From: an uncultured Pelagibacteraceae bacterium
GTDB lineage: Bacteria > Pseudomonadota > Alphaproteobacteria > Pelagibacterales > Pelagibacteraceae
DNA: 46,472 bases
Direction: 5' to 3'
Assembly (NCBI GenBank): GCA_902603945.1
Contig: CACKWP010000006.1
Coordinates: forward strand, 1-46,472
Positions within the stretch are counted from its first letter, which is position 1, and each line of letters begins with the position of its first letter. This document shows positions 3,001 to 43,417 of the stretch, piece after piece. Below the pieces are notes generated by a model. It was given only the letters and a program-made list of their open reading frames with translations. It searched no databases and was not told the origin of the DNA. A program made the position numbers and the translations under genes.

Positions 3001-4022
3001 TTGCTGCAACTGAAGTAAGAGAAATTCTTGCATCTCTTGGATTTAAGTCAATTAATGAAATAATTGGGAGAACTGATTTATTAACTCAGGTAAATAAAGG
3101 TGCATCGAACTTAGATGATTTAGATTTAAATCCGTTATTAGTGCAGGCAGACCCAGGTGAAAATTTAAGATATTGTAAAGATAAACATATTAATAAAGTG
3201 CCTGATACTCTCGATGAGAAGATTTGGTCTGAGATAAAAAATAAGATTAAATTAGACTCAGAAAATAAATTTAATTACGAGATAGAAAATACATCGAGAT
3301 CTGTTGGAACAAGGTTATCTCACCACGTATATAAAAAATTTGGTAACAATAAATTAAAAGAAAATACGATTCATATAAAACTAGAGGGTTCTGCAGGACA
3401 ATCTCTTGGTGCTTTTCTCACTAAAGGAGTAAAACTTACTGTAAAAGGAGATTGTAACGATTACGTTGGCAAGGGATTATCCGGGGGAACTATTGTTGTA
3501 TATCCATCTCCAAAAAGTTCTTTAGTTTCAAATGAAAACACAATTATTGGTAACACCGTTCTTTATGGAGCTACTTCTGGAAAATTATTTGCATCAGGAC
3601 AGGCGGGTGAAAGGTTTGCGGTTAGAAATTCTGGAAGCTTTTCAATTGTTGAAGGATGTGGAGCTCATGGATGCGAGTATATGACTGGCGGATCTGCTAT
3701 TATTTTGGGACAAGTAGGAGATAATTTTGGCGCAGGAATGACAGGCGGTATGGCCTTTGTTTATGATGAAAAAAATACTTTCGAAAATTATGCTAATCCA
3801 GCTTCAATAATTTGGCAAGAAGTTGAAACAGATCATTGGAAAAACTTTTTAAAAATTAACTTAAACTCTTTTGTTAAAGAAACAAATTCAATAATTGCTC
3901 AAAAAATATTAAATAATTTTGATAATGAACTTAAAAAATTTAAACAAGTTTGCCCTATAGAAATGTTAGATAAATTAGAAAATCCAATTAGTCTGAAGCC
4001 TCGCGTTAAAAAGGCAAGTTAA
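1..4022 (+). CDS. gltB: glutamate synthase (GOGAT) large subunit, 5' end outside window
   Basis: Large subunit of glutamate synthase, which makes two glutamates from glutamine and 2-oxoglutarate in ammonium assimilation. The frame is open through base 3 with no stop, so the gene begins before the window. About 1,340 of the usual ~1,500 residues are present; the missing part carries the N-terminal catalytic Cys of the glutamine amidotransferase domain. Visible in order are the rest of the amidotransferase domain (RYSTNTFPSWDLAQPFR, then HNGEINT), the central domain, the FMN-binding synthase domain (KPGEGGQLPG, SGHSGGTGASP), and the C-terminal GXGXG beta-helix. Three cysteines encoded at 2883, 2901 and 2916 are spaced C-x5-C-x4-C, as in the 3Fe-4S site of the family. 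The small subunit gltD is not in the window. The TTG at 18 is an internal codon, not a start. Confidence 0.97.
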   Translation, partial: KKNESLQTNDLERDLFETRKKIEKVARDKQIKDFYICSFSSRSIVYKGMFLAEMLSEFYPDLNDKKLTSRFAIFHQRYSTNTFPSWDLAQPFRTLAHNGEINTVKGNINWMKIHEQDMSSPLFKDVKNLKPVIRSSSDSGALDNVFELLTHSGKLAPLIKLMMIPDSWSKRSKTVPKNHQDLFNFLNSTIEPWDGPAAICATDAKWVLASSDRNGLRPLRYSITSDDLFFVGSETGMIKIPEEMIIEKGKLGPGQIIAIDLKKGKLFKDKEIKDLLAKDYKKYNKQIIDLEKKISSEDEKPNFLSEDLRKRQYLSGLSIEDLELILHPMAEEGKEASGSMGDDTPVAVLSSHFRPVSHYFRQNFSQVTNPPIDSLRENKVMSLKTRFGNLGNILDFDNLTEENIYVLDSPILTNSQFKKFKKFFSKKVKVIDCTFDIERSLKERIELIREEAETAVREGSTCLILSDKNISNQKASIPSILTVGAIHSHLVKHGLRGYCSLNVECSDAMDTHSFAILIGVGATTVNPYLAIDSIYQRFERKLFGKSDFETCVSKFKKSIDAGLLKIMSKMGISVISSYRGGCNFEAVGLSRAIVSDYFPGMSSRISGIGIIGIEKKIKELHEKFKAKNVYTLPIGGLYRYRKTGEDHQYQGKLIHLLQSAVGSGSYEQYKKYSVGIHNLPPINIRDLLEFKRSRKPIDIDEVEPIEEILKRFGSGSMSHGALSAEAHETLAMGMNRIKGASCSGEGGEDAKRFKTLPNGDSANSRVKQIASARFGVTVDYLNNANEIEIKIAQGAKPGEGGQLPGFKVTEEIARLRHSTPGVTLISPPPHHDIYSIEDLAQLIYDLKQINPGARVGVKLVASTGIGTIAAGVAKAKADIILISGHSGGTGASPQTSIKYAGIPWEMGLTEANQILTLNNLRHNVTLRTDGGLKTGRDIVMAAMMGAEEYGMGTSSLVAMGCIMVRQCHSNTCPVGVCSQDEALREKFTGTPEKVVNLFKFAATEVREILASLGFKSINEIIGRTDLLTQVNKGASNLDDLDLNPLLVQADPGENLRYCKDKHINKVPDTLDEKIWSEIKNKIKLDSENKFNYEIENTSRSVGTRLSHHVYKKFGNNKLKENTIHIKLEGSAGQSLGAFLTKGVKLTVKGDCNDYVGKGLSGGTIVVYPSPKSSLVSNENTIIGNTVLYGATSGKLFASGQAGERFAVRNSGSFSIVEGCGAHGCEYMTGGSAIILGQVGDNFGAGMTGGMAFVYDEKNTFENYANPASIIWQEVETDHWKNFLKINLNSFVKETNSIIAQKILNNFDNELKKFKQVCPIEMLDKLENPISLKPRVKKAS

Positions 4023-32733: not shown

Positions 32734-34447
32734 TTATTTTATAGGCTTAATAATAATTTTTTTTTGCTCACATCTTTTAAGTGAAGAAAAAATAGATATT
32801 TGGAAAAAAAAAAAAGAATTACCTCAAGAAAATCTAGAACTTGAGGAAAAAAATAATCAGGGAAATTCTAATTTAAAAATTTCAGAACCTATAAAGGCTT
32901 TAGATAAAATTAAAATACAAGAAAGTTCTACAATACAGTCTGAGGAAAAAAATGTTTTCGGTATTTATGAGCCAGCTAGCTATGGCTTTAATTTAAATAT
33001 GTGGTCAGAAACTAAGGCTGAAGATTTGAGATCAAGTTTAAAAAGATTGAAAAAAATTGAACTTTCAAAATCCTCAAATGAGATTTTAGAAGCTATTCTA
33101 TTTTCATTTTCATATCCTCCTCAAGGTATGACTGAGAAAGAGTTTGTAGATTTGAAAATAAATTGGATGATAGAACATGATCGCATTAATTTGATAGAAA
33201 GTTTTTTGAAACAAAACGATCAATTTGATAGTAAAAAAAAAGCCGTTGAATATTTAGTTAACAAAAAAATTGCTAGCGGGAATATAAAGGAAGGGTGTGA
33301 AAAAATTAAATTTATAGACGCAAAAATAAAAGATTCCTATTTGGAAAAATTTAAAATTTATTGCTTAGTATTTAATGACAAAAAACTAGAGGCTCAACTT
33401 TTGTTAGATCTTTTACGCGAACAAAAACAATCAAGTAAGTTTTATGATGATAAAATCAATTTCTTACTTGGCATTACCGATAAAACCAATAATAAAATTA
33501 ATGAAAAAAATTTATTAAATTTTTATCTTTCCAGTGTTACCATCAAAGACTTCAAGTACGAGCCAACGAACAAAACTAAACCAGAAATATGGTCTTATCT
33601 AAATGCAGCTAATTTAATTACTTTAGAAGACGCCTCAGATAAAGAAAAGTTAAAAGAATTAGAAAAAGCAGCAAATAATAATCAGCTAGATAAAAATAAA
33701 ATTTTTGAAATTTATAAACAGATACCCTTTAATTTAAATACTTTAATTAATGCCAAAAATAATTTTCAAACTTTAAATGAAAGTGACGCGAGAGCTTTAA
33801 TTTATCAAAAATATCTCCTATCAGACTCAATTGAATCAAGGATTGAATATTTGTTTTTATTAGAGGAGCTATTTAAGAAAAATAATTTAGCTAATATTTT
33901 TTCAAAATTTTTAAGTGATAGAATTGAAGAAATTGGTATTGAAAATCTTCCAACAAAATATCAAGAAACTGCGCAGGCAAAAATTGTTTCAGAGGAAGAT
34001 TTGTTATTAGGAAAAGTTAAATATAACGATAAAATTTTGCATCAATCAAAAATATTAAAATATTACACAGAAGGAGAGAATAAAGTTAAAATTCAAAAGG
34101 ATATCAACAAAATTTTTAAAAGAATAGGTAAAAATAAAAAGTATTTCATTTCAGCTAAAGATTTAGCCTTAGCTGATACTTTGATCGCAGATGGTTTTTC
34201 TTTGCCTTCAAGTTTCAAGTATAACGAGCTCTCACAGCAAATTGATGTTCCAAGTAATTTGTTACAATTAGCTGAGAATAATCAAAAAGCATTTCTTGCG
34301 CTAAAAATTGTAGAGATAATTGGAGAAGATGAGCCTTATCAACTTGATCCAGAAACTATATATTTTGTAACTAATCTTCTTAATAAAACCGATCTAGTGA
34401 CCATTAGAAATAAAGTTTTAAATTCTGCCCTACCCAAAAGAATCTAA
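32714..34447 (+). CDS. exported protein of unknown function
   Basis: 577-residue protein with a signal peptide (basic MKLR, then FIGLIIIFFCSHLLS, cleavage near residue 23), so probably periplasmic. A Glu/Lys-rich linker runs to about residue 85, followed by a long helical region resembling tetratricopeptide-like helical repeats. The segment NLNMWSETKAEDLRSSLKRL recalls an uncharacterised alphaproteobacterial family found near aroK/aroB; this is a memory-based hint. The N-terminus overlaps the 59-residue membrane protein gene by 20 bases, and def follows after 17 bases. The function is unknown. Confidence 0.7.
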   Translation: MKLRSFNYFIGLIIIFFCSHLLSEEKIDIWKKKKELPQENLELEEKNNQGNSNLKISEPIKALDKIKIQESSTIQSEEKNVFGIYEPASYGFNLNMWSETKAEDLRSSLKRLKKIELSKSSNEILEAILFSFSYPPQGMTEKEFVDLKINWMIEHDRINLIESFLKQNDQFDSKKKAVEYLVNKKIASGNIKEGCEKIKFIDAKIKDSYLEKFKIYCLVFNDKKLEAQLLLDLLREQKQSSKFYDDKINFLLGITDKTNNKINEKNLLNFYLSSVTIKDFKYEPTNKTKPEIWSYLNAANLITLEDASDKEKLKELEKAANNNQLDKNKIFEIYKQIPFNLNTLINAKNNFQTLNESDARALIYQKYLLSDSIESRIEYLFLLEELFKKNNLANIFSKFLSDRIEEIGIENLPTKYQETAQAKIVSEEDLLLGKVKYNDKILHQSKILKYYTEGENKVKIQKDINKIFKRIGKNKKYFISAKDLALADTLIADGFSLPSSFKYNELSQQIDVPSNLLQLAENNQKAFLALKIVEIIGEDEPYQLDPETIYFVTNLLNKTDLVTIRNKVLNSALPKRI

Positions 34448-34464
34448 TTAAAATATAGTTAATA

Positions 34465-34989
34465 ATGCCTCAAAAAAAAATTGTAATTGAGCCTGATCCA
34501 ATTTTACGAAAAAAAAGTAAACCGGTTGAAAAAGTTGATGATGAACTTAGAAGATTATTAGATGATATGCTTGAAACAATGTATGCGGCACCTGGTATTG
34601 GTTTAGCTGCAGTACAGGTAGGAATTTTAAAGCGTTTAATTGTAATAGATATTTCAAAAGATGAAGATAAAAAAGAACCTCTTTTTTTAATAAATCCTAA
34701 AATAATTTCCAAATCTCAACAGACATCAACATATGAAGAAGGATGTTTGTCTTTACCTGGACACTTTGCAGAAATTGAAAGACCAGCTGAATGTGAAATT
34801 AATTTTATAGATTACAATGGTAAAAAAAAAGAAATTAAAGCTGACGGGCTTCTTTCAACTTGTATTCAACATGAAGTCGATCATCTTGATGGCGTATTAT
34901 TCATTGATTATTTGTCAAAATTAAAAAAAGACATGATTATAAAAAAATTAGTAAAACACAAAAAAGAACTCAACAAAATCGTTTTGTAA
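34465..34989 (+). CDS. def: peptide deformylase
   Basis: 174-residue metalloenzyme that removes the formyl group from new proteins. The three conserved motifs are present: [19 protein letters not shown] with metal ligand Cys94, and QHEVDHLDG with His136 and His140 and catalytic Glu137. It lies 5 bases before fmt, which adds the formyl group to Met-tRNA, so the formylation cycle is encoded together. Length is normal. Confidence 0.97.
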
Positions 34990-34994
34990 ATTAA

Positions 34995-35916
34995 ATGACT
35001 TTGAAAATAATTTTCATGGGGACCCCAGAATTTGCAGTTCCATCGTTGAAGTCGATTGCAAACTCAAGTCACAAAATTCTAGAGGTTTATACTCAGCCTG
35101 CAAAAAAAAAAAATCGAGGTCAGAAAATTAAAAATTCCCCAATCTATGAGTGTGCCGCAAAATTGAATTTAAAGATAAGATGTCCTATTTCATTAAATAC
35201 ACAAGATGAATTTGACCATTTTAAAAGTTTGAAACCTGATTTAGTGGTAGTTGTAGCCTATGGAAAGATTATACCTGCTAATTTTTTAAATATTAAAAAG
35301 ACTCTTTTCATTAACTTACATGCCTCTTTATTACCAAGGTGGAGAGGAGCAGCACCAATACAAAGATCAATTATAAACATGGATGAAGAAACTGGTGTTT
35401 CAATTATGAAAATAGTTGATAAACTCGATGCTGGTCCAATTTTGTTAACCTCAAAAATTAAGATTACAAAAGATAGCAAATTTAATGAAATTAGTCAGAA
35501 GATGTCAAATATTGGAGCTAAGCTTGTATTTGAAGCTATAAATCTCATAAAAAAACAATACTGTAAATTTTATAGACCAAAATGAAAATGAAGCTACTTA
35601 TGCAAAAAAAATTGAAAAAAAAGAATTAAAAATTAATTGGAATGAGGAAGCAGATCAAATTATTGCAAAAATAAATGCGTTCAATCCAAGTCCTGGATGT
35701 TGGTTTAATTTGTCGGGATTAAGAATAAAAGTCTTAACAGCCAAAGAAGTCGAAGCTTCGGGGAAGCCAGGGACTATAGTAGATCAAAATTTAACAATCG
35801 CATGTTCAAAAAATGCTATCCAAATCTTAGAGTTAAAAAAAGAGGGTAAGCAAAAAATTAAAACAGAGGAATTTCTCAAAGGAAACAAGATTAAAATTGG
35901 TCAATGCGTAAGTTAA
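34995..35916 (+). pseudogene. fmt: methionyl-tRNA formyltransferase, frameshifted in this sequence
   Basis: Fmt formylates initiator Met-tRNA. The first frame (34995-35585, 196 residues) holds the complete catalytic domain: NLHASLLPRWRGAAP with Asn107 and His109, and Asp145 in KLDAGPI. It then stops early. The C-terminal domain continues in another frame, readable as NFIDQNENEATYAKKIEKKE and on to the stop at 35914-35916. Removing one A from the run of seven A at 35549-35555 joins the two into about 306 residues, the normal Fmt length. An indel in that homopolymer is the simplest cause: sequencing error, recent mutation or slippage site. The intact def and truA neighbours favour a functional gene in the real genome. 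Confidence 0.9.
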
Positions 35917-35917
35917 A

Positions 35918-36658
35918 ATGTTTAATTACCTTTTGAAAATAGAATACGATGGAACAAATTTTGTAGGTTGGCAAAGTCAGAAAAATGGAAATTCAATTCA
36001 AGACAGCATCGAGAAGGCTTTAAAAAAAGTACTTAAAACCAAAGTCAAAATCATAGGTGCTGGAAGAACTGATAAAGGTGTCCACGCTTTATCACAATTT
36101 GCAAATTTTCAATTAAAAAAAAAGATAGAGGATAAAAAAGTTTTTATTAACTCTATTAATTTTTTTCTAAAAAAAAAATTAATAACCATTTTAGGCATAA
36201 AAGAAGAAAAAAAAAATTTCCATGCACGTTTTAGCGCTAAACTTCGTACTTATGAATATTTAATAATTAACAGGCAAGGATCATTATCAATTGATAAAAA
36301 TAGAGCTTGGCATGTCAAAAACAACATAGATTTAAAATTAATGAAAAAAGGAGCTAGAATTTTAGAGGGAACTCAAGATTTTTCAACATTTAGAGCTGCT
36401 TCGTGTTCAGCTAAATCTCCAATTAAAAAAATTTTACCAATAAAAATAAAAAAATTAGGTAACACTATTTCAATAAAAATTAGCTCGAAGTCTTTCTTGC
36501 AAAATCAAGTAAGATCAATGGTTGGTTGTTTGAAATACCTATCTACAAATAAATGGAGTATTACTGACTTTAAAAAAGCTTTCAAATCAAAACAAAGAAA
36601 TAATTGTGCACCTCCTGCACCCGCATGTGGCTTATATTTAAAAAAAATAAAGTACTAA
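35918..36658 (+). CDS. truA: tRNA pseudouridine(38-40) synthase
   Basis: 246-residue TruA, which converts uridines 38, 39 and 40 of tRNA anticodon arms to pseudouridine. The catalytic Asp52 lies in GAGRTDKGVHA. The N-terminal KIEYDGTNFVGWQSQ and the C-terminal SFLQNQVRSMVG segments are diagnostic. The start is one base after the fmt stop. Its own stop directly abuts the end of the convergent GT2 glycosyltransferase gene with no gap. Confidence 0.97.
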   Translation: MFNYLLKIEYDGTNFVGWQSQKNGNSIQDSIEKALKKVLKTKVKIIGAGRTDKGVHALSQFANFQLKKKIEDKKVFINSINFFLKKKLITILGIKEEKKNFHARFSAKLRTYEYLIINRQGSLSIDKNRAWHVKNNIDLKLMKKGARILEGTQDFSTFRAASCSAKSPIKKILPIKIKKLGNTISIKISSKSFLQNQVRSMVGCLKYLSTNKWSITDFKKAFKSKQRNNCAPPAPACGLYLKKIKY

Positions 36659-37414
36659 TTATTTAATCCCGTACTTCTTAAAAGAGTTTAAAGAGATAAA
36701 AAATAACGAATACAAACTAGTAATAAAATTTAATTTATTAAATTTTCTATTAATTCTCCATAACCAAAAGACATTTCTTAATTTATTTTTTGATAAAGAG
36801 TTTTCTTTAATTCTATATTTAAGTAAATTTTCCTGTAAGCAGTGAGCATTTTTTGCTTTCTTAAGCGCCTGACATTTCAAATAATAATCCTCAAAATTAG
36901 GAGACATACATAATTTTATATTTTTAAGTATTTCTTTTTTCATCATTATACTACTTGTTGCAATCGAAGAGTTTTTTATGAATGAGTTAAAATCAAATTT
37001 CTTTGGCGGTTTAATCTCTTTCAGGTAAACATTTTTATTCTTGAATGGAATATAATTTGTGTAGGTAAAAATAAATCTATTTTTTTGCATAAAATCAAGT
37101 TGGTTTTTCAGTTTATTTTTTGTCCACAGATCATCAGAGTCTATAAAAGCGATAATTCTTGATTTAGATTTTTTAATTCCATAGATTCTACAATAACCAT
37201 CTCCTTTATTTTGTTTTAAAAAAAAAACCTTTATTCTTTTATTATTTTTTAAACTTTTTAAAATATTCTTAGTTTTTATATTTGAATTGTCATCAACAAT
37301 TATTAGTTCCCAATTTTGATAAGTCTGTTGCGTAATTGATTTAATCGTTTCTCTCAAGTAATTTTGGCTATTATAATTCGGCATTATAATTGAAATTTTT
37401 GCAATGTTTTTCAT
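36659..37414 (-). CDS. glycosyltransferase family 2
   Basis: 251-residue GT-A fold enzyme. It starts KISIIMPNYNSQNYLRETI, the family entry motif, followed by ELIIVDDNS and IAFIDSDDLWT, which supplies the DXD-type metal/nucleotide site. No membrane anchor is obvious. Enzymes of this kind add sugars to lipopolysaccharide or capsule. It is the last gene in a minus-strand run behind the SET-domain gene, 46 bases downstream, and ends exactly where truA ends. It is the fourth surface-glycan gene placed among housekeeping genes in this window. The substrate is unknown. Confidence 0.88.
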   Translation of the reverse strand: MKNIAKISIIMPNYNSQNYLRETIKSITQQTYQNWELIIVDDNSNIKTKNILKSLKNNKRIKVFFLKQNKGDGYCRIYGIKKSKSRIIAFIDSDDLWTKNKLKNQLDFMQKNRFIFTYTNYIPFKNKNVYLKEIKPPKKFDFNSFIKNSSIATSSIMMKKEILKNIKLCMSPNFEDYYLKCQALKKAKNAHCLQENLLKYRIKENSLSKNKLRNVFWLWRINRKFNKLNFITSLYSLFFISLNSFKKYGIK

Positions 37415-37460
37415 AATCGTAATTAATTAAGATAATTTTAAATTAAAATTATCCAATTGT

Positions 37461-37919
37461 TTATAATTTCTTTTTTTTCAATTTCTTGATTCTCCACCTA
37501 GAACCCTCTCGAACAATAAATCCACAGCAATTTTTTGATTTGCACTTACATGGATAATTTTTAAAATCTTTATCGAAGCTAAAGCCATAATCATAAGAAA
37601 ATTCCTCGCCTTTCTTAATATCCTTAATTGCATACACCCAAACTTTTAGTCCTGTTCCAGTTACTTCACAATTTGGATTGCACGAGTGGTTTATTAGCCT
37701 TGCTGTATTGAACTTAAAATCACCATCTAAGTCGTATTTTTTATTTAAATTAAATAAATAGATAGCTTTATCATTGTCGTATTTTGGATTTTCCTCTGCT
37801 TCTCTTCTTGTAATGACTTTGCCTTTATACTCAATTATTTTTGCTCCTCTTTTAATATTTCTTGCTGCGTACAGACCTAAGTTATCAATTTTAGATCTCC
37901 TTACTTTGTAAGGCCTCAC
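37461..37919 (-). CDS. SET-domain lysine methyltransferase with post-SET cysteines
   Basis: 152-residue protein made almost entirely of a SET domain, the SAM-dependent lysine methyltransferase fold common in eukaryotes. Visible are GLYAARNIKRGAKIIEYKG (residues 15-33), RLINHSCNPNCE with NHSC at 77-80, and GEEFSYDYG near 104-112 holding the catalytic-type tyrosines. A C-terminal CxCx4C (Cys124, Cys126, Cys131) is a post-SET motif which with Cys80 can bind zinc. The tail is strongly Lys-rich. The start is GTG, overlapping the dapE TGA (GTGA). The target is unknown; a ribosomal or nucleoid protein is possible. Confidence 0.85.
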   Translation of the reverse strand: MRPYKVRRSKIDNLGLYAARNIKRGAKIIEYKGKVITRREAEENPKYDNDKAIYLFNLNKKYDLDGDFKFNTARLINHSCNPNCEVTGTGLKVWVYAIKDIKKGEEFSYDYGFSFDKDFKNYPCKCKSKNCCGFIVREGSRWRIKKLKKKKL

Positions 37920-41418: not shown

Positions 41419-43101
41419 TTAATTTGTTTTCACAGTCGTTTTTTTAACAATTACATACTGTTGAGCAATTGTGAGAATATTATTTATTGTCCAGTAAACA
41501 ACTAAACCAGAAGGGAAAGAAGCAAGTATGATCGTTAAAAATAATGGAAAGAAAGCAAATATTTTTGCTTGTATAGGATCAGCAGGAGCAGGGTTTAATT
41601 TTTGTTGAACCCACATAGAGGCCCCCATTAATATTGGCCAAATGCCAATAACCAAGAACCCTGGAGGATCCCATGGAATTAGACCAAATAAATTGAATAA
41701 AGAAGTCGGGTCTTGCGCAGACAAGTCTTTTATCCAACCAAAAAATGGCTGATGCCTCATTTCTAAAGAAATAAAAAGCATCTTATAAATTGCAAAAAAG
41801 AATGGAATTTGAATTAAAACTGGCAAGCAGCCTGATGCAGGATTTATTTTTTCTTTCCTATATAACGCCATCATCTCTTGTTGCAATTTAACTTTATCAT
41901 CTTTGTGTAGTTCTTTAAGCCTCATCATCTCAGGTTGAACCGCTTTCATTTTTGCCATTGACCTGAATGAGAAGTTAGCCAGCGGGAAGAAAATAAGTCT
42001 TATAGCAATTGTTAATAGCACTATAGCTGTTCCAAAATTTCCTGAAATTTTAAATAAATAATCTATTACGAAAAATAGAGGTTTTGTGAAAAAGTAGAAC
42101 CATCCCCAGTCTATAACTAGATCAAATTTATTTATATTTTGGTCTGCAGCATACCCGTCAATTGTCTCAACCTCTTTAGCCGCAATAAATAATCTAAGTT
42201 TATTTGACCCAGTTGATAATTTACCAATATTTACCGGTTCATTAATAATATAATTAGCTTTAAATCCATTTTCATAGAGGAACGTGGATTTAAAATTTTT
42301 ACCTGACTCAGGGACAAAGGCAGTCATCCAATATTTATCTGTTATTCCAAGCCAGCCTTCACTAGACTCTCTAACTATTTTTTTTTCTTCCACATCATCA
42401 TAGTCGTCTTCCTTTAATTCATCGTCAAATACGCCGATAAAACCCTCGTGTTGAATGTAAAAATTTTGAATATCATCAGGAATTTTATTTCTCGTCATCT
42501 GTGCATATGGATATAAATCAATAGCTGAATTCGAATTATTTTTTACTTTCTGTGAAATTTTAAATAAATATTTGTCATCTAACTCAATTTTTTTTTCAAA
42601 AGTAACGCCCTCTTGATTGTTCCATTGCAAAATGACAGGAGAGTTGTCACTTAAAATATTATTATCTTTAACTGTCCATTCAGAGTCTTTTGATGGGACT
42701 TTAATTTTATTTCCAATGCTCGTCCAACCTGTTTCAATATAAAAACCGTTTTCCGTATCAGAGGGATTTAGAAAAATAATATTTTTTCCATCTTCAACTT
42801 TTTGCTTGTGTTTTTTAAAAGATATATCGTCAATCAAAGCTCCTTTTAAATTAATTGAACCTACTACACTGTCATTCTCGATTTTAATTCTTTTATTCGA
42901 ATTGATAGACTCTTCTCTAGTAAGTTTTTTTATTATCTGTGGTTGAGTTATTGTTGGTGTAATAGAGTTTTGTTCACCATTTTGCTCTACATTTTGATTA
43001 CTTTGTTGATTAGGAGATTTTTTAGGTGTTCCAAAAAAAGCTTCCCAGAAAAGCAAAACAGACATAGCGAGAGCAATTGCTACAAAAACATTTCTATCCA
43101 T
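41419..43101 (-). CDS. yidC: membrane protein insertase YidC
   Basis: About 560 residues starting [20 protein letters not shown], the standard YidC first transmembrane segment. An open frame extends 51 bases upstream into yidD, but that start would put a basic tail before the helix; I take the ATG ending at 43101, which overlaps yidD by 8 bases. A Gln/Asn-rich linker and the large periplasmic domain (about 60-350) precede the five-helix insertase core. The core shows [11 protein letters not shown] with the conserved Arg and [20 protein letters not shown]. It inserts inner-membrane proteins with or without SecYEG. Confidence 0.97.
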
Positions 43102-43417
43102 TTTTACTATCCTTTTTATCTTCGTATTTCCATCCAGCCTTTTGTAAGCCATCTACAATTATTTTTAATCTTTCTTGTCTACTAGCATTTTTTGGAATTG
43201 GCACGAAATCTACACCTTGACTGCCGCCGAGTTTCTTAAATGGATGACATTTAAAAATTCTTTTTACCCCTAATTTAATTCCTATTGTTAAACCCTGGGT
43301 TTTAAGTGCTTCAATAAAATACTCTGAACAAGAAGGTAAAAATCTACATCTACTACCTAACAATGGAGAAATTAAATATTGATAAATTTTAATTATGAAA
43401 ATAAGAATATTTGTCAT
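43094..43417 (-). CDS. yidD: membrane protein insertion efficiency factor YidD
   Basis: 107-residue peripheral membrane protein that assists YidC. The signature is [25 protein letters not shown], followed by CHPFKKLGG. The C-terminal ~40 residues are longer than in E. coli and Lys-rich. It follows rnpA after one base and overlaps yidC by 8 bases, the conserved rnpA-yidD-yidC order. Confidence 0.96.

Follow-up and report, generated by a model that had tools for sequence, protein, structure and literature searches.

Does the living cell behind this SAR11 assembly carry a broken fmt gene, or did the break arise on the way from cell to assembled sequence? The question comes from the window, the whole stretch of 46,472 nucleotides analysed here, which is contig C6 of a Pelagibacteraceae (SAR11) draft genome (G000; 838 kb in 29 contigs, 76% complete). 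The preliminary description of the window placed a one-base indel of fmt in a run of seven A, and listed an error of sequencing or assembly, a fresh mutation and polymerase slippage as possible causes, unranked. Its position for the indel and its two frames proved correct to the base; of the causes that it listed, the error is the best supported by our analysis, and slippage rescue is disfavoured.

A check of the sequence confirmed seven A at 35549-35555 on the forward strand, which is also the strand of fmt and of its two neighbouring genes. The fmt ORF at 34995..35585 (196 aa) reads through this run to an early TGA stop 30 bases on, and contains the catalytic half of the enzyme (Pfam Formyl_trans_N, PF00551; 1.9e-36, profile positions 2-181 of 181). 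The +1 frame stays open over 35551-35916 (121 codons), has no usable start and carries the C-terminal domain (Formyl_trans_C, PF02911; 3e-24, profile positions 1-99 of 100). Against TIGR00460, a single NCBIfam model of Fmt, the first half matches positions 1-187 and the second 189-310, and therefore the two halves abut in the model. Scored separately they reach 198.4 and 75.6 bits, against a curated cut-off of 201.5, so that no single frame of this genome carries both domains with a score above the cut-off. The locus thus has both Fmt domains, adjacent and in order, between an upstream intact ORF of 174 aa (34465..34989), which we take from its sequence and neighbourhood to be def, for peptide deformylase, and a downstream intact ORF of 246 aa (35918..36658), presumably truA, for a tRNA pseudouridine synthase; it differs from an ordinary fmt in being divided between two frames, and this in the present assembly only. 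A separate gene for the C-terminal half can be rejected, as the one start-like codon of its frame, a TTG, leaves 68 codons. Runs of seven A in the sense strand are not unusual in the window, with 80 of them across 39 other ORFs. Further downstream, a small ORF (37461-37919) looks from its sequence like a SET-domain protein, which is unexpected in so streamlined a genome.

The relatives found by searching with Fmt were Pelagibacteraceae drafts, mostly with plate-style names such as AG-447-P19. The N-terminal half was matched in 118 of 121 genomes (the genome itself, its genus and its order); within the genus, 140 of the 169 genomes searched matched the C-terminal half. In 136 of these 140, by a tally made by eye, as were all our whole-gene counts, the C-terminal half lies within a single frame of 305 aa or more; three copies are cut at contig ends (in G177, where the end was checked, and in G178 and G150, read from coordinates), and only that of G000 is split. 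Among the genomes searched the closest relative is AG-447-P19 (L032 and G217, and to judge by its coordinates also G183), whose sequence agrees with that of G000 at 3609 of 3700 positions near fmt, or about 98%; over these 3.7 kb (34001-37700) the sole gap is at the run, which has six A there and seven in G000. Its Fmt is intact at 309 aa, with which both the repaired junction of the preliminary description and its repaired length of about 306 residues agree.

The same description had proposed a comparison of homopolymer length in related genomes, and had held that seven A conserved with a stop in all relatives would point to slippage or to a truncated functional Fmt; no other genome proved to be split. 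For the comparison, 61 loci were named and 43 distinct ones were left once duplicates had been removed (L019, which is without the search motif, was left out). Among these 43 the A-run of the linker is not conserved and there is no further break besides contig ends, while six loci (L004, L020, L025, L033, L053 and L066) have seven or eight A in the linker and yet remain in frame. These findings dispose of a clade-wide truncation or a conserved slippery site. An old pseudogene was rejected on the ratio of non-synonymous to synonymous change (pN/pS), which is alike in the two halves at 0.31 and 0.32, although from only 13 and 7 differences.

Comparison with AG-447-P19 was extended to the whole window, where seven small gaps were found; the fmt indel is the sole uncompensated coding indel, the rest being intergenic or compensated. 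One side observation is that an ORF at 43094-43417, presumably yidD, has a product 107 aa long in G000 and 83 aa long in AG-447-P19, with gaps that compensate each other. Beyond the window, 324 kb could be aligned at a mean identity of 94% over the stretches taken, against about 98% near fmt (34001-37700), an excess which may reflect local recombination. A gene-level test for breaks, run both ways, covered 317 and 316 ORFs; four flagged rows, two each way, proved to be false flags from tandem paralogues and were discarded. Only two of the 317 genes tested are truly broken in G000, which speaks against a generally bad assembly: fmt, and an epimerase/methyltransferase gene (850 aa in AG-447-P19) that is split near position 91214 of contig C2 (L082), where five A have become six. 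In the reverse direction the CMP kinase gene cmk, whole in G000, is truncated in AG-447-P19 near position 98921 of its contig C1 (G217:C1; L096), where six A have become seven. Each of these three breaks is thus one surplus A in an A-run. As cmk is essential, a lesion of this sort need not be a true feature of the living cell, and the cmk frameshift is probably a fault of the public AG-447-P19 assembly.

How often such lesions occur was gauged with two genes that we take from their sequences to be pheT and thrS, searched in the same 169 genomes of the genus as the C-terminal half of fmt. Both are essential, and breaks in such genes can only rarely occur in living cells. pheT was matched in 137 genomes: 120 copies are whole, 14 are cut at contig ends (G041 and G162 were checked, the remaining ones read from coordinates), one (G149, L134) is joined to unrelated sequence that looks to us like uvrA, and two are frameshifted. 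These two of 122 spanning genomes are G036 (L132), broken where the sequence is rich in A and has one run of ten A and one of eight, and G028 (L133), broken within a G run. For thrS, 128 copies are whole and eight are cut at contig ends, with no frameshift in any of the 128 full-length copies. Together pheT and thrS give two frameshifts in about 538 kb (0.37 per 100 kb), and fmt one in about 126 kb (0.79 per 100 kb). At the rate of the two essential genes 0.47 breaks of fmt would be expected against the one observed; a single break is therefore unremarkable, and fmt is not enriched.

For comparison, a single-cell genomics workflow tried on benchmark cultures gave 3.0 indels per 100 kb in the portion of that study cited here, which also has plate AG-447 in a table (PMC6122165); the figure recurs in the relevant passages of PMC9771814, PMC8443664 and PMC11247762. 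The density of breaks seen here, about 0.4-0.8 per 100 kb, is below this value. Like the indel errors of single-cell assemblies, as the cited parts of PMC6122165 and PMC9771814 present them, the fmt lesion is a one-base indel confined to one assembly, and lesions of like kind and density lie in essential genes (cmk, pheT) of sister assemblies; it differs in that the G000 case is known from assembled sequence alone.

Given that this is the sole split in 140 genomes, and that essential genes of sister assemblies are broken as well, we conclude that the split of fmt is most likely an indel of amplification, sequencing or assembly. The seventh A would then be absent from the gene of the living cell, and the one-base insertion would have arisen after capture of the cell, in one of the steps from whole-genome amplification and library PCR to sequencing and assembly of a SAR11 genome taken from a single cell (or from comparably little input); the true fmt would be an ordinary intact gene in a def-fmt-truA arrangement. 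That G000 was made by a workflow of the single-cell type we infer from its relatives and from its draft state (838 kb in 29 contigs), and its reads would be expected to show six A. Simple run-length-driven error cannot be the whole story, since longer runs are in frame, including one of twelve A (35102-35113) in this very fmt gene that is also present in AG-447-P19; the absence of breaks from 128 copies of thrS likewise counts against so simple a model. A genuine frameshift that arose very recently in the cell sampled or in its near relatives, leaving a 196-aa product without the C-terminal domain and formylation lost or weak, would look identical to an assembly error if it were confined to one wild cell. 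The assembly itself does read seven A, neither half of fmt has decayed, as expected of a recent event, and homopolymer indels are ordinary replication errors. We nevertheless think such a mutation unlikely, with none of the 136 other full-span genomes split, the closest relative and the neighbouring def intact, and like breaks in cmk and pheT of other assemblies, two essential genes in which one would not expect a true null.

It is very unlikely that a real seven-A allele is rescued by slippage or that the short Fmt is functional. To the former, in which slippage of RNA polymerase or +1 shifting of the ribosome would restore part of the Fmt, we give hardly any credence, even though the two frames meet at the A-run and the C-terminal half looks constrained. 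The run in the linker is unconserved, with only seven A. Nor do SAR11 ORFs avoid such runs, which are slightly over-represented against an expectation from shuffling synonymous codons: 695 observed and 598 expected in G000 (406 ORFs, 405 kb), and 1270 observed and 1129 expected in AG-447-P19. Depletion sets in only from about ten to twelve A, and up to nine are tolerated without it; if slippage at seven A were frequent, hundreds of genes would suffer. Rescue would also require a one-base deletion in the transcript, the rarer direction: in the parts of the Buchnera and E. coli study cited here, transcript slippage at A/T runs mainly inserts bases, and restoration of a frame was not observed (PMC5574713). 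Selection against slippage is described for nine A in many bacterial genomes, in the portion of PMC1088944 cited here, where eight are called non-slippery. The 'pseudo pseudogenes' of that text, rescued by transcriptional slippage, resemble our locus in that an A-run joins two frames (PMC1088944); the present run differs in having seven A, short of about nine or more, in being unconserved as a slippery site with a frame break, and in needing a deletion and not an insertion. Programmed ribosomal frameshifting, whether -1 or +1, was rejected as well, for the -1 frame hits a stop and the frame needed is +1, and there is no stable downstream structure (z of 0.57 and -0.19). Of the papers that a literature search on SAR11 frameshifts, homopolymers or pseudogenes brought up, none dealt with slippage rescue in SAR11 in its title or the opening of its abstract. 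Least probable of all is that the 196-aa Fmt works alone, the C-terminal domain having become dispensable in the lineage. The 196-aa ORF does contain a complete formyltransferase domain; the C-terminal domain of Fmt is, however, needed for tRNA binding, both domains lie in one frame in all 136 other full-span Fmt of the genus, and constraint on the C-terminal half is unchanged in G000.

With a post-capture indel as the most likely origin of the split, the lesson is one of caution: by our counts, draft SAR11 genomes of this type carry about one gene-breaking indel per 130-270 kb, essential genes included, and 'pseudogenes' or 'slippage candidates' taken from one assembly should be backed by reads or by another genome. 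We see very little chance that a SAR11 population both carries a true seven-A allele and either lives on the full-length Fmt that slippage supplies or, as a free-living ocean bacterium, is in the course of losing formylation. If the allele were true, it would bear on how far a streamlined free-living bacterium tolerates the loss of initiator formylation.
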